The notes under the pieces: generated by a model | The model's input: the letters and a program-made list of their open reading frames with translations, nothing else | The model's database searches: none | What the model was told of the DNA's origin: nothing | Translations under genes and position numbers: made by a program | Part shown: positions 27,226 through 30,759 of the stretch, in pieces | How the letters are laid out: each line of letters begins with the position of its first letter | Position numbering within the stretch: the stretch's first letter is position 1 | Assembly: GCA_028707175.1 (NCBI GenBank) | Contig: JAQTUV010000002.1 | Span: forward strand, 310,001 to 374,000 | Direction: 5' to 3' | Length of the DNA: 64,000 nucleotides | From: Sideroxydans sp. | Lineage (GTDB): Bacteria; Pseudomonadota; Gammaproteobacteria; Burkholderiales; Gallionellaceae

Positions 27226-28722
27226 ATGTTTGAGTCTGCCGAGTTAGGTCACAAGATCGAGAAAGCACTCTACGAGAGGGAGGTGCCGAAATTACGGGAA
27301 GCATTGCTGAATGCGCAGTTCGATCTGGCGGAAAAAGCGACCTTCCCAGTCATCATTTTGATTGGTGGGGTGGATGGTGCAGGCAAGGGCGAGACAGTTA
27401 ATTTGCTTAACGAGTGGATGGATCCGCGCCATATTCAAGTTCATGCAACAGGCGAGATGTCGGATGAGGAGCGCGAACGTCCCGCAATGTGGCGTTTTTG
27501 GCGTGCTTTGCCCCCCAAGGGAAAGATCGGTGTGTTCTTTGGCTCTTGGTACACAGCGCCAATCGTGCAGCGCGTCCTCAAACATAGCGACAACGCAACA
27601 CTTAACCAACACATCGAGGAAATCAATCGCCTTGAAAAAATGCTCACGGATGATGGGGCATTGGTATTGAAATTTTGGTTCCACCTTTCAAAGGTGAATC
27701 AAAAGAAACGGCTGAAGACACTGGAAAAAGATCCCGATACTCGCTGGCGAGTCACCAAGCTTGATTGGAAGCGCTTTGAGCTGTACGACCGTTTTCGCAA
27801 GGTCTCCGAGCATACGCTGAGAGAAACCAGCACCGCAGAAGCTCCATGGATTGTCGTTGAGGGTAGCGATGCGAACTACCGTAGCCTGACGGTAGGCAAG
27901 ATATTGTTAGATGCTCTACGCAAGCGTATCGACGTCCCCGCCAAGAAAGCTCGTTCGAAAGCTGCGCCATTGCTAGCCTCCATTGATGGCTTGGATGTTT
28001 TGGACAGACTCGATATGTCGCAAAAGCTTGCGAAGAACAAGTTCGAATCTGAGTTAGAAAAATATCAAGGTAAGCTAAATCTCCTCACACGTGATGCCAG
28101 ATTTCGCAAAATTTCTGTCATTGCAGTATTTGAAGGCTCGGATGCGGGCGGCAAGGGAGGCGCAATTCGGCGCATCACTGGCGCACTGGATGCAAGACAC
28201 TATCGTATTGTTCCTGTTGCAGCGCCAACTGAAGAAGAGCGCGCTCAGCCTTATTTATGGCGCTTCTGGCGGCAAGTGCCACGTGTCGGTCGGTTCACGA
28301 TATTTGATCGCTCTTGGTATGGGCGTGTGTTGGTTGAACGTGTTGAACGATTCTGCTCGGAAGCAGATTGGATGCGCGCTTACAACGAAATCAACGATTT
28401 TGAGGAACAACTAACAGCGCACGGTGGTGTGGTTGTTAAATTTTGGCTAGCCATCACCAAAGAGGAACAATTACGTCGATTCAAAGCTCGCGAGAAGATA
28501 TCCTTCAAGCGTTTCAAGATCACGCCTGATGATTGGCGTAATCGTGAAAAGTGGGGAGACTACGAACGTGCGGTTTGCGACATGGTTGATCGAACCAGCA
28601 CCAGTCTAGCTCCGTGGACCTTGGTAGAAGCAAATGATAAGAATTTTGCGCGTATCAAGATACTCAAAACGCTATGTGAACGTATCGAAGCAGCCATGGA
28701 TAAAGTTAAATCAAACAAGTGA
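27226..28722 (+). CDS. pap: Polyphosphate:AMP phosphotransferase (two-domain PPK2)
   Basis: A 498-residue fusion of two PPK2 domains. The N-terminal domain has GGVDGAGKG (residues 47-55); the C-terminal one has EGSDAGGKGG near residue 300 and the lid EERAQPYLWRFWR. The double-domain form is the class that phosphorylates AMP to ADP using polyphosphate. In Acinetobacter PAP the C-terminal half is catalytic; the N-terminal copy here keeps its P-loop but has a changed lid. An AAGGAG SD precedes the ATG. Confidence 0.92.
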   Translation: MFESAELGHKIEKALYEREVPKLREALLNAQFDLAEKATFPVIILIGGVDGAGKGETVNLLNEWMDPRHIQVHATGEMSDEERERPAMWRFWRALPPKGKIGVFFGSWYTAPIVQRVLKHSDNATLNQHIEEINRLEKMLTDDGALVLKFWFHLSKVNQKKRLKTLEKDPDTRWRVTKLDWKRFELYDRFRKVSEHTLRETSTAEAPWIVVEGSDANYRSLTVGKILLDALRKRIDVPAKKARSKAAPLLASIDGLDVLDRLDMSQKLAKNKFESELEKYQGKLNLLTRDARFRKISVIAVFEGSDAGGKGGAIRRITGALDARHYRIVPVAAPTEEERAQPYLWRFWRQVPRVGRFTIFDRSWYGRVLVERVERFCSEADWMRAYNEINDFEEQLTAHGGVVVKFWLAITKEEQLRRFKAREKISFKRFKITPDDWRNREKWGDYERAVCDMVDRTSTSLAPWTLVEANDKNFARIKILKTLCERIEAAMDKVKSNK

Positions 28723-29134: not shown

Positions 29135-30200
<1,066 letters not shown>

Positions 30201-30206
30201 GTCTGC

Positions 30207-30309
30207 AAGTAGCGAAAGTTACTTCCCGTTTCTCCTCCCTGAGCGGGCGTCTTTACCCTGTAAAGACCCTTTGCCCCTAGTCATCCCCTTTGACTAGGGG
30301 TATTTTTTT
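30207..30309 (+). ncRNA. Candidate trans-acting small RNA with CUCCUCCC loop
   Basis: A 103-nt region between hemB (divergent) and DUF486 that holds four consecutive hairpins. Hairpin 1 is AAGTAGC-GAAA-GTTACTT with a GNRA tetraloop. Hairpin 2 is CCCG...CGGG whose 15-nt loop contains CTCCTCCC (30232-30239), complementary to Shine-Dalgarno sequences. Hairpin 3 is a perfect GTCTTTAC-CCT-GTAAAGAC. Hairpin 4 is a perfect 10-bp stem CCCCTAGTCA / TGACTAGGGG followed by TATTTTTTT, a strong terminator. The loop motif is the one found in the alphaproteobacterial CcsR / 'cuckoo' small RNAs. The RNA would act by base-pairing with ribosome binding sites. Confidence 0.7.
30274..30309 (+). terminator. Rho-independent terminator of the small RNA
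   Basis: A perfect 10-bp stem with a 7-nt loop (TCCCCTT) and a seven-T tail. It lies about 100 bp before the DUF486 gene, so it ends a separate short transcript rather than hemB, which reads the other way. Confidence 0.9.
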
Positions 30310-30405
30310 GCTTCTTGCTCCCACAATTTTGCACGTTCAAGCCTGTCGCAGAATGCTATTCTACTGCGCCTGTACTAGCTTCAACAGCCACACATTCGAA
30401 TCCGC

Positions 30406-30759
30406 ATGAACCTAATATCAAATCCAATACTGATCACCGTGCTGATGCTAGCCGTGTCTAATTTGTTTATGACATTCGCGTGGTACGGACATTTGAAGAA
30501 TCTGACTTCTTCACCTTGGTATATTGCAGCACTAGTCAGCTGGGGAATTGCGCTTTTCGAATATCTGTTGCAAGTACCCGCTAATCGGATCGGCTACACC
30601 GAGTTGAATCTTGGACAACTCAAAATTTTGCAAGAAGTCATTACCCTAACTATTTTTGTCCCTTTTGCAGTTATTTATATGAACCAACCGCTAAAGATGG
30701 ACTACCTTTATGCTGGTCTGTGCCTAATGGGTGCGGTGTATTTTATTTTTAGAGCCTAA
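30406..30759 (+). CDS. DMT-superfamily small membrane protein (DUF486)
   Basis: A 117-residue protein with four membrane helices and the DUF486 pattern: LMLAVSNLFMTFAWYGHLKN, then ALFEYLLQVPANRIGY and LKILQEVITL. It is related to small multidrug-resistance-type transporters but has no proven substrate. The stop is four bases before the mpl ATG. Confidence 0.88.
   Translation: MNLISNPILITVLMLAVSNLFMTFAWYGHLKNLTSSPWYIAALVSWGIALFEYLLQVPANRIGYTELNLGQLKILQEVITLTIFVPFAVIYMNQPLKMDYLYAGLCLMGAVYFIFRA

Follow-up and report, generated by a model that had tools for sequence, protein, structure and literature searches.

The locus and its RNA family

The window, a 64-kb stretch of a Sideroxydans genome, holds a gap of 263 nt between the hemB gene and a gene coding for a DUF486 protein. 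Among named genomes, the top three matches to this hemB come from MAGs of Sideroxydans and Gallionella, with 91-93% identity, which makes an origin in the Gallionellaceae most likely. The features that an initial annotation had placed in this gap are all found there on direct reading of the letters and on folding, namely the GGAACT and TCTGA boxes, four hairpins, a loop with the sequence CTCCTCCC and a terminator (Table 1). Elsewhere in the window, positions 27226-28722 (+) encode a two-domain PPK2 polyphosphate kinase with PF03976 recognized in two stretches.

Table 1. Features of the hemB-DUF486 intergenic region and its flanking genes, in window coordinates
Feature	Position	Strand	Basis or remark
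hemB (delta-aminolevulinic acid dehydratase)	29135..30142	-	PF00490; divergent neighbour
RpoE (sigma-E)-type promoter: GGAACT (30172-30177), 18-nt spacer, TCTGA (30196-30200)	30172..30200	+	motif, in-register conservation
Predicted sRNA, homologue of anti-hemB, about 103 nt	30207..30309	+	predicted start, 7 nt after TCTGA
Hairpin 1, almost wholly outside the Rfam model	30207..30224	+	fold; covariation
Rfam RF02837 anti-hemB match, model positions 1-81 (complete)	30223..30308	+	63.9 bits, E 1.3e-12 over the window
Hairpin 2, presents the UUCUCCUCCCUGA loop (candidate seed)	30225..30247	+	fold, alignment, covariation
CUCCUCCC motif	30232..30239	+	letters read directly
Conserved core CCUCCCUGA	30234..30242	+	loop comparison over 110 loci
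Hairpin 3	30249..30267	+	fold; covariation
Intrinsic terminator, loop with second C/U stretch UCCCCUUU	30272..30309	+	fold; terminator scan
DUF486 / DMT_6 gene	30406..30759	+	PF04342; downstream neighbour

The sequence belongs to the known anti-hemB sRNA family (RF02837): its score lies well over the gathering cut-off of 49.5 bits, it is the single over-cut-off Rfam match in the entire window, and its own genome contains one copy. It also displays the features of the family, i.e. conserved stem-loops with a CCUCCC loop, a terminator and a divergent hemB. The earlier statement that no such RNA had been described in this lineage was thus wrong, as the element has been reported in Burkholderia under the names anti-hemB and ncS04 (PMC3521395, PMC5688073). 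It is tabulated as a trans-acting RNA in a study of B. pseudomallei (PMC3521395), and the Burkholderia cenocepacia J2315 homologue ncS04 is an RNA of 105 nt, with its start mapped by dRNA-seq and its 3' end by RACE, which was seen on a Northern blot, for which Hfq binding is cited, and whose level was unchanged in all seven tabulated conditions (PMC5688073). Neither the Rfam entry nor the available text of the Burkholderia papers gives a function for it (PMC5688073, PMC3521395). Among the literature matches listed for ncS04 only PMC5688073 concerns the RNA, and those for the CUCCUCCC motif contain, by title and abstract, nothing on anti-hemB. A transcriptome study of C. metallidurans reports the B. 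cenocepacia sRNAs as undetected (PMC7563307).

The covariance-model search of betaproteobacterial genomes that the initial annotation had suggested as a check recovers RF02837 matches at E 0.001 in 299 of 399 genomes in an order-level sample (245 over the family cut-off) and in 53 of 61 relatives (52 over the cut-off). Sub-cut-off matches also turned up in 3 of 14 control genomes, and weak matches therefore need careful reading; there was no matching plasmid record. For comparative analysis we used a non-random set of 110 loci, composed of the best-scoring matches (same-genus ones included) and hand-chosen loci, mostly one per genus, after dropping from 112 two in which the RNA core was not found (L106 and L109). 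A divergent hemB lies within the fetched 1.5 kb at 89 of these loci and is the commonest neighbour seen; the DUF486 gene, found near the RNA in 4 of the 110, is not generally conserved with it.

Several genomes contain additional copies. Five loci from the same genus (L113-L117, in genomes G425, G417, G404, G402 and G024) are second anti-hemB copies with no hemB match nearby, two of which (L113, L114) pass the Rfam cut-off. Their promoters differ: those of L113 and L117 are of the TTGACA type and that of L116 is of the RpoE type; L114 and L115 have a GGAACTT box with an imperfect -10. These paralogues were excluded from the promoter counts given below and retained in the alignment. Two further genomes, G251 and G234, have six anti-hemB matches apiece, where the family may have expanded locally.

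Conserved structure and the anti-Shine-Dalgarno loop

For the sequence from 30207 to 30315 the predicted fold has four hairpins and an energy of -42.5 kcal/mol (z -6.62); none of 200 dinucleotide shuffles is as stable. The terminator, on which the fold and the terminator scan agree, consists of a 12-pair stem at 30272-30302 followed by seven T. An alignment of 87 loci (one per genus, four from the genus of the window, plus the five paralogues) yields a consensus of four helices. With this structure fixed, 92.8% of cells are paired and 20 of the 26 pairs are changed on both sides; double changes occupy 254 cells against a shuffled mean of 67, with 0 of 500 shuffles as high, although the test is somewhat in favour of a structure derived from the same alignment. 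Sliding the partners by one column lowers pairing to 50-56%. Hairpin 1 belongs to the conserved structure in spite of its absence from the Rfam model, all five of its consensus pairs having both-side changes across the 87 sequences. The stem-loops are thus conserved above chance, by covariation and by the Rfam match. The initial annotation had held that a lack of structural conservation in related genomes would speak against it, and there the four helices covary; its proposal of a small RNA gene with a loop complementary to Shine-Dalgarno sequences gains support from the same two lines of evidence.

The loop of hairpin 2 is retained, and the paralogues, which share it, alter the underlying stem in matched pairs. 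Of the 110 loci, 108 have the loop core CCTCCCTGA and 73 the exact CTCCTCCC. The exact CUCCUCCC was accordingly rejected as a conserved signature; the conserved part is CCUCCCUGA. A second C/U stretch recurs in the terminator loop, with CCCC[TC]T at 92 and TCCCCTT at 74 of the 110 loci, and this conserved UCCCCUUU-like stretch could be a second seed. In two loci (L035, L037) tandem repeats of a terminator-like hairpin adjoin the sRNA gene just outside its terminator.

An RpoE-type promoter conserved in register

Upstream of the RNA, the strict motif GAACT-N15-19-TC[TA]NA is present at 78 of the 110 loci, which represent 31 of the 38 families and 51 of the 79 genera; from dinucleotide shuffles one would expect 0.32 such loci, and the motif occurs in one of 4207 control windows drawn from the same loci. 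Its spacer takes just two lengths, 17 (55 loci) and 18 (23 loci); the usual spacing of E. coli RpoE promoters is 17-18 in the counting used here. A leave-one-family-out weight matrix places 97 of the 110 loci over a 1% control threshold and 93, from 35 of the 38 families, over a 0.1% threshold of 9.0, against which the site of the window scores 19.0. The distance from the motif to the RNA core has a standard deviation of just 1.9 nt, compared with 104 nt for the distance to the hemB match (n=74), indicating that the promoter motif belongs to the RNA. A relaxed form of the motif is also present at 13 of the 21 loci without an identified hemB, or 12 of 19 if two loci cut by contig ends (L072, L110) are set aside. 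The boxes resemble those of E. coli RpoE, which has GGAACTT at -35 and requires a C at -10 (PMC8103513).

A lone match to such a motif is uninformative. In the genome of the window GGAACT-N16-18-TCNNA occurs 25 times, no more commonly than a reversed control pattern (59 times), and promoter evidence from the single genome was therefore rejected; the site rises above chance because it is conserved in register in other genomes. Taken this way, the guess of a sigma-E-type promoter in the initial annotation bears out well, and control of the RNA by sigma-E, as deduced from the motif, has strong comparative support.

The motif is lost or altered in certain lineages. From 80 loci in named organisms we counted 50, having dropped 27 in which the core was not found and three with a poor core; 21 of the 50 have the motif in its relaxed form, among them Gallionellaceae, Nitrosospira, Dechloromonas and Aromatoleum, and it is missing from all seven Burkholderia, Paraburkholderia and Cupriavidus loci and all five Variovorax loci. 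Judged by eye, the loci of these last four genera have TATGAT/TATCAT boxes or a TTGA..-TTAAAT pair instead. Family f31, with four loci in the 110-locus set, corresponds by sequence to the named loci from Burkholderia, Paraburkholderia and Cupriavidus. Its loci L003 and L079 exceed the 0.1% matrix threshold; their boxes, GAAACTT or TAAACTT plus ATCATA, overlap with a stretch that resembles TATCAT or the like. One more locus narrowly passes the 1% threshold, suggesting that the loss of the RpoE-type motif in this family may be partial. In B. ambifaria, taken as a substitute, a 105-nt transcript that stops at the T-run would begin 7 nt past TATGAT, the same geometry as in the window, where a 103-nt RNA would begin 7 nt past TCTGA. 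As Burkholderia lacks a clean motif, the result on ncS04 in that genus neither contradicts nor positively supports the sigma-E idea.

The genome of the window contains the corresponding regulatory genes: rpoE (308.9 bits), with rseA and rseB directly behind it, and hfq (97.7 bits). Across the 399 genomes, 276 have matches to both the sRNA and RpoE, 23 to the sRNA only, 63 to RpoE only and 37 to neither, a co-occurrence with a Fisher p of 4e-11 when relatedness is left uncorrected. Among the 23 genomes with the sRNA only, 13 have weak matches (E above 1e-8) and 5 more are under 90% complete. The remaining ones combine a strong sRNA match and a more complete genome with no RpoE match (G033, G159, G230, G234, G344). 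In G033 and G344 the strict motif is present (at L071 and L073) despite the missing RpoE match, and these two genomes speak against a strict link between the sRNA and RpoE, unless rpoE lies in missing sequence. Within 400 nt of the start of rpoE itself no GAACT-TCNNA box was found upstream in the genome of the window.

Candidate targets

In its own genome, TCAGGGAGG occurs within reach of an ATG at two sites. Both read TCAGGGAGGA, which is complementary to the loop over 10 nt and occupies the Shine-Dalgarno position; one precedes a gene for a FadL-type outer-membrane protein (PF03349) and the other a gene which, from its letters, we take to be PrpE-like. As the pattern that led to the choice of both genes derives from the loop, their top pairing rank is circular. 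A complement of 8-10 nt is found at the Shine-Dalgarno of FadL-type porin genes in 9 of the 13 strong loci (L340-L352, own gene included), encoding proteins with about 50% identity to that of the window genome, and is lacking in L346, L349, L351 and L352; 17 weaker loci (L353-L369) were left out of the count. By comparison, 3 of 410 background gene starts, which were set by a simple rule with no gene caller, have 8 nt or more of loop complement. The background contains some false genes from a CRISPR-array-like run of repeated GTAGCGCTCGCACC...GATTGAAAC units in the same genome (C8, about 92500-95600; L374). The FadL-type porin may therefore be regarded as a lead, a candidate target picked by pattern at loci that share ancestry.

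The other candidate is rpoE in the Gallionellaceae. Codons 3-6 of rpoE hold CAGGGAGG in 18 of the 19 Gallionellaceae loci examined; codons 3 and 4 are invariable and codon 5 varies once, and among the first 60 codons only 5 of 45 codons for invariant residues are fixed in these genes. This set was gathered with a pattern already holding GACAGGGA, which all 19 Gallionellaceae rpoE loci shown passed. AGG is not rare in these genes, accounting for 68 of 386 other Arg codons. The pairing energy of rpoE with the loop ranks 10 of the 410 background gene starts. In other families CAGGGAGG is absent from rpoE at all 11 loci with the start found; two of these (L285, L298) instead have a complement of 7 nt located upstream of where rpoE begins.

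Pattern scans for targets in 60 and 100 genomes returned many sites, of which only those in the own genome were examined; because some of the matches represent the sRNA itself in antisense, the scans were not used to compile targets. AGGGAGG was also observed at starts that we take, from their letters, to be PrpE-, SerC-, CysT-, DctM- and NuoA-like.

Proposed function and alternative explanations

Taken together, the evidence is best explained by an anti-hemB sRNA that is transcribed by RpoE and acts in trans with Hfq to block translation, a reading that we consider fairly probable as a whole. In this lineage the RNA would be transcribed by RNA polymerase with RpoE from GGAACT-18-TCTGA and ended by its own terminator. 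Envelope stress would free RpoE from RseA, leading to synthesis of the sRNA, whose CCUCCCUG loop, with Hfq, would pair with selected mRNAs around the Shine-Dalgarno and the beginning of the coding sequence and thereby block their translation. The best candidates for such targets would be the FadL-type outer-membrane protein and, in the Gallionellaceae, rpoE itself.

The same trans-acting RNA might instead come from a different promoter, such as a housekeeping one, with the GGAACT-TCTGA pair unused by RpoE here. The sigma-70-like boxes seen by eye at Burkholderia-type and Comamonadaceae-type loci, the fitting distance from TATGAT in B. ambifaria, the TTGACA start at two of the five paralogue loci and the unchanged level of ncS04 across the tabulated conditions (PMC5688073) would all agree with this. 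A consensus scan of window positions 29800-30700, however, found no sigma-70-type promoter, and the in-register conservation of the RpoE-type motif far exceeds the controls, making this explanation rather unlikely for the window. Antisense regulation of hemB in cis, at which the family name hints, would fit the prevalence of the divergent gene, but the predicted RNA begins outside hemB and runs away from it; moreover, hemB was not found in the fetched 1.5 kb at 21 of the 110 loci (two of them cut by contig ends, and hemB may lie further off), nor at the five paralogue loci, and for pairing with the loop the start region of hemB comes 316th of 410. We accordingly rejected hemB as a target on its pairing rank and on the loci where it was not found, and regard cis action as very improbable.

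The RNA might also lack specific mRNA targets and serve in titration, its loop mimicking the 16S anti-Shine-Dalgarno or its body holding Hfq. The conserved core CCUCCCUGA is generic and Hfq binding is cited for ncS04 (PMC5688073), both in keeping with such a role; against it, the conserved loop CCTCCCTGA exceeds a minimal Shine-Dalgarno complement, and most of the FadL-type genes (9 of 13) contain a matching 8-mer or longer, so we find titration improbable. Still less credible, to the point of being nearly dismissible, is a betaproteobacterial version of the cuckoo/CcsR/ar14 RNAs. The initial annotation had equated the loop with their motif, and in this it was right insofar as CUCCUCCC is common to both; the likeness goes little further, as sub-threshold alignments to ar14 (16.8 bits) and mmgR (21.5 bits) fall far below cut-offs of 58.8 and 41, there is one motif hairpin and not three, and the flanking genes belong to PF00490 and PF04342, with no DUF1127. 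The model score, the number of hairpins and the neighbouring genes thus led us to reject membership in the cuckoo/ar14 group.

Within the preferred reading of an RpoE-transcribed, trans-acting RNA, we tentatively combine two further elements: negative feedback on rpoE in the Gallionellaceae via CAGGGAGG at codons 3-6, and a rewiring of the RNA to sigma-70-like promoters in Burkholderia and Comamonadaceae. Such a rewiring, if true, would explain why the RNA has remained function-less in the genus of its discovery. The RpoE-type promoter across 35 of the 38 sampled families suggests when the anti-hemB RNA should be made, and thereby turns an orphan RNA family into the subject of a direct experiment on a testable envelope-stress role. 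Among the literature matches listed for RpoE and sRNAs in or near this group, in which subscription papers are under-represented, none was recognized, judging by title and opening of the abstract, as a betaproteobacterial sigma-E sRNA.

Comparison with known systems

The closest counterpart is ncS04 of RF02837, which the window RNA resembles in sequence and structure, in the hemB neighbour that gives the family its name, in its CU-rich loop and terminator, and in length (103 nt predicted against 105 nt mapped). It differs from the Burkholderia anti-hemB loci seen in having an RpoE-type promoter in place of a TATGAT-type one, and from the RF02837 model in its hairpin 1, which the model does not include. 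The Burkholderia 'toxic small RNA' (RF02278), of which the window contains no over-cut-off match, is likewise short, and its CU-rich loops complement ribosome binding sites (PMC5688073); as far as described there, it is a double-hairpin RNA, unlike the four-hairpin RNA of the window.

The alphaproteobacterial RNAs ar14, NfeR1, cuckoo and CcsR share with the window RNA an anti-Shine-Dalgarno, CCUCCUCCC-like loop (PMC10746234, PMC10253847, PMC8307010). Of these, ar14 has three CCUCCUCCC hairpins, compared with one such loop here, and CcsR comprises four RNAs homologous to one another that are partnered by a DUF1127 gene, in contrast to the hemB and DUF486 neighbours in the window.

With the sigma-E sRNAs MicA, RybB, MicL, VrrA/MicV and FoxI/FoxJ the window RNA has in common an RpoE-type promoter and the form of a small terminated RNA, and further a candidate outer-membrane-protein target and a candidate damping of rpoE output (PMC11005410); the likeness is one of promoter and predicted features, and homology is not claimed. 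Overproduction of FoxJ and FoxI lowers rpoE (PMC11005410). A comparable circuit is found with NfeR1, an anti-Shine-Dalgarno sRNA that represses the ntrB mRNA of its own regulator via a predicted 8-nt pairing (PMC10746234), and this NfeR1-ntrB feedback parallels the feedback between anti-hemB and rpoE that we tentatively propose for the Gallionellaceae.
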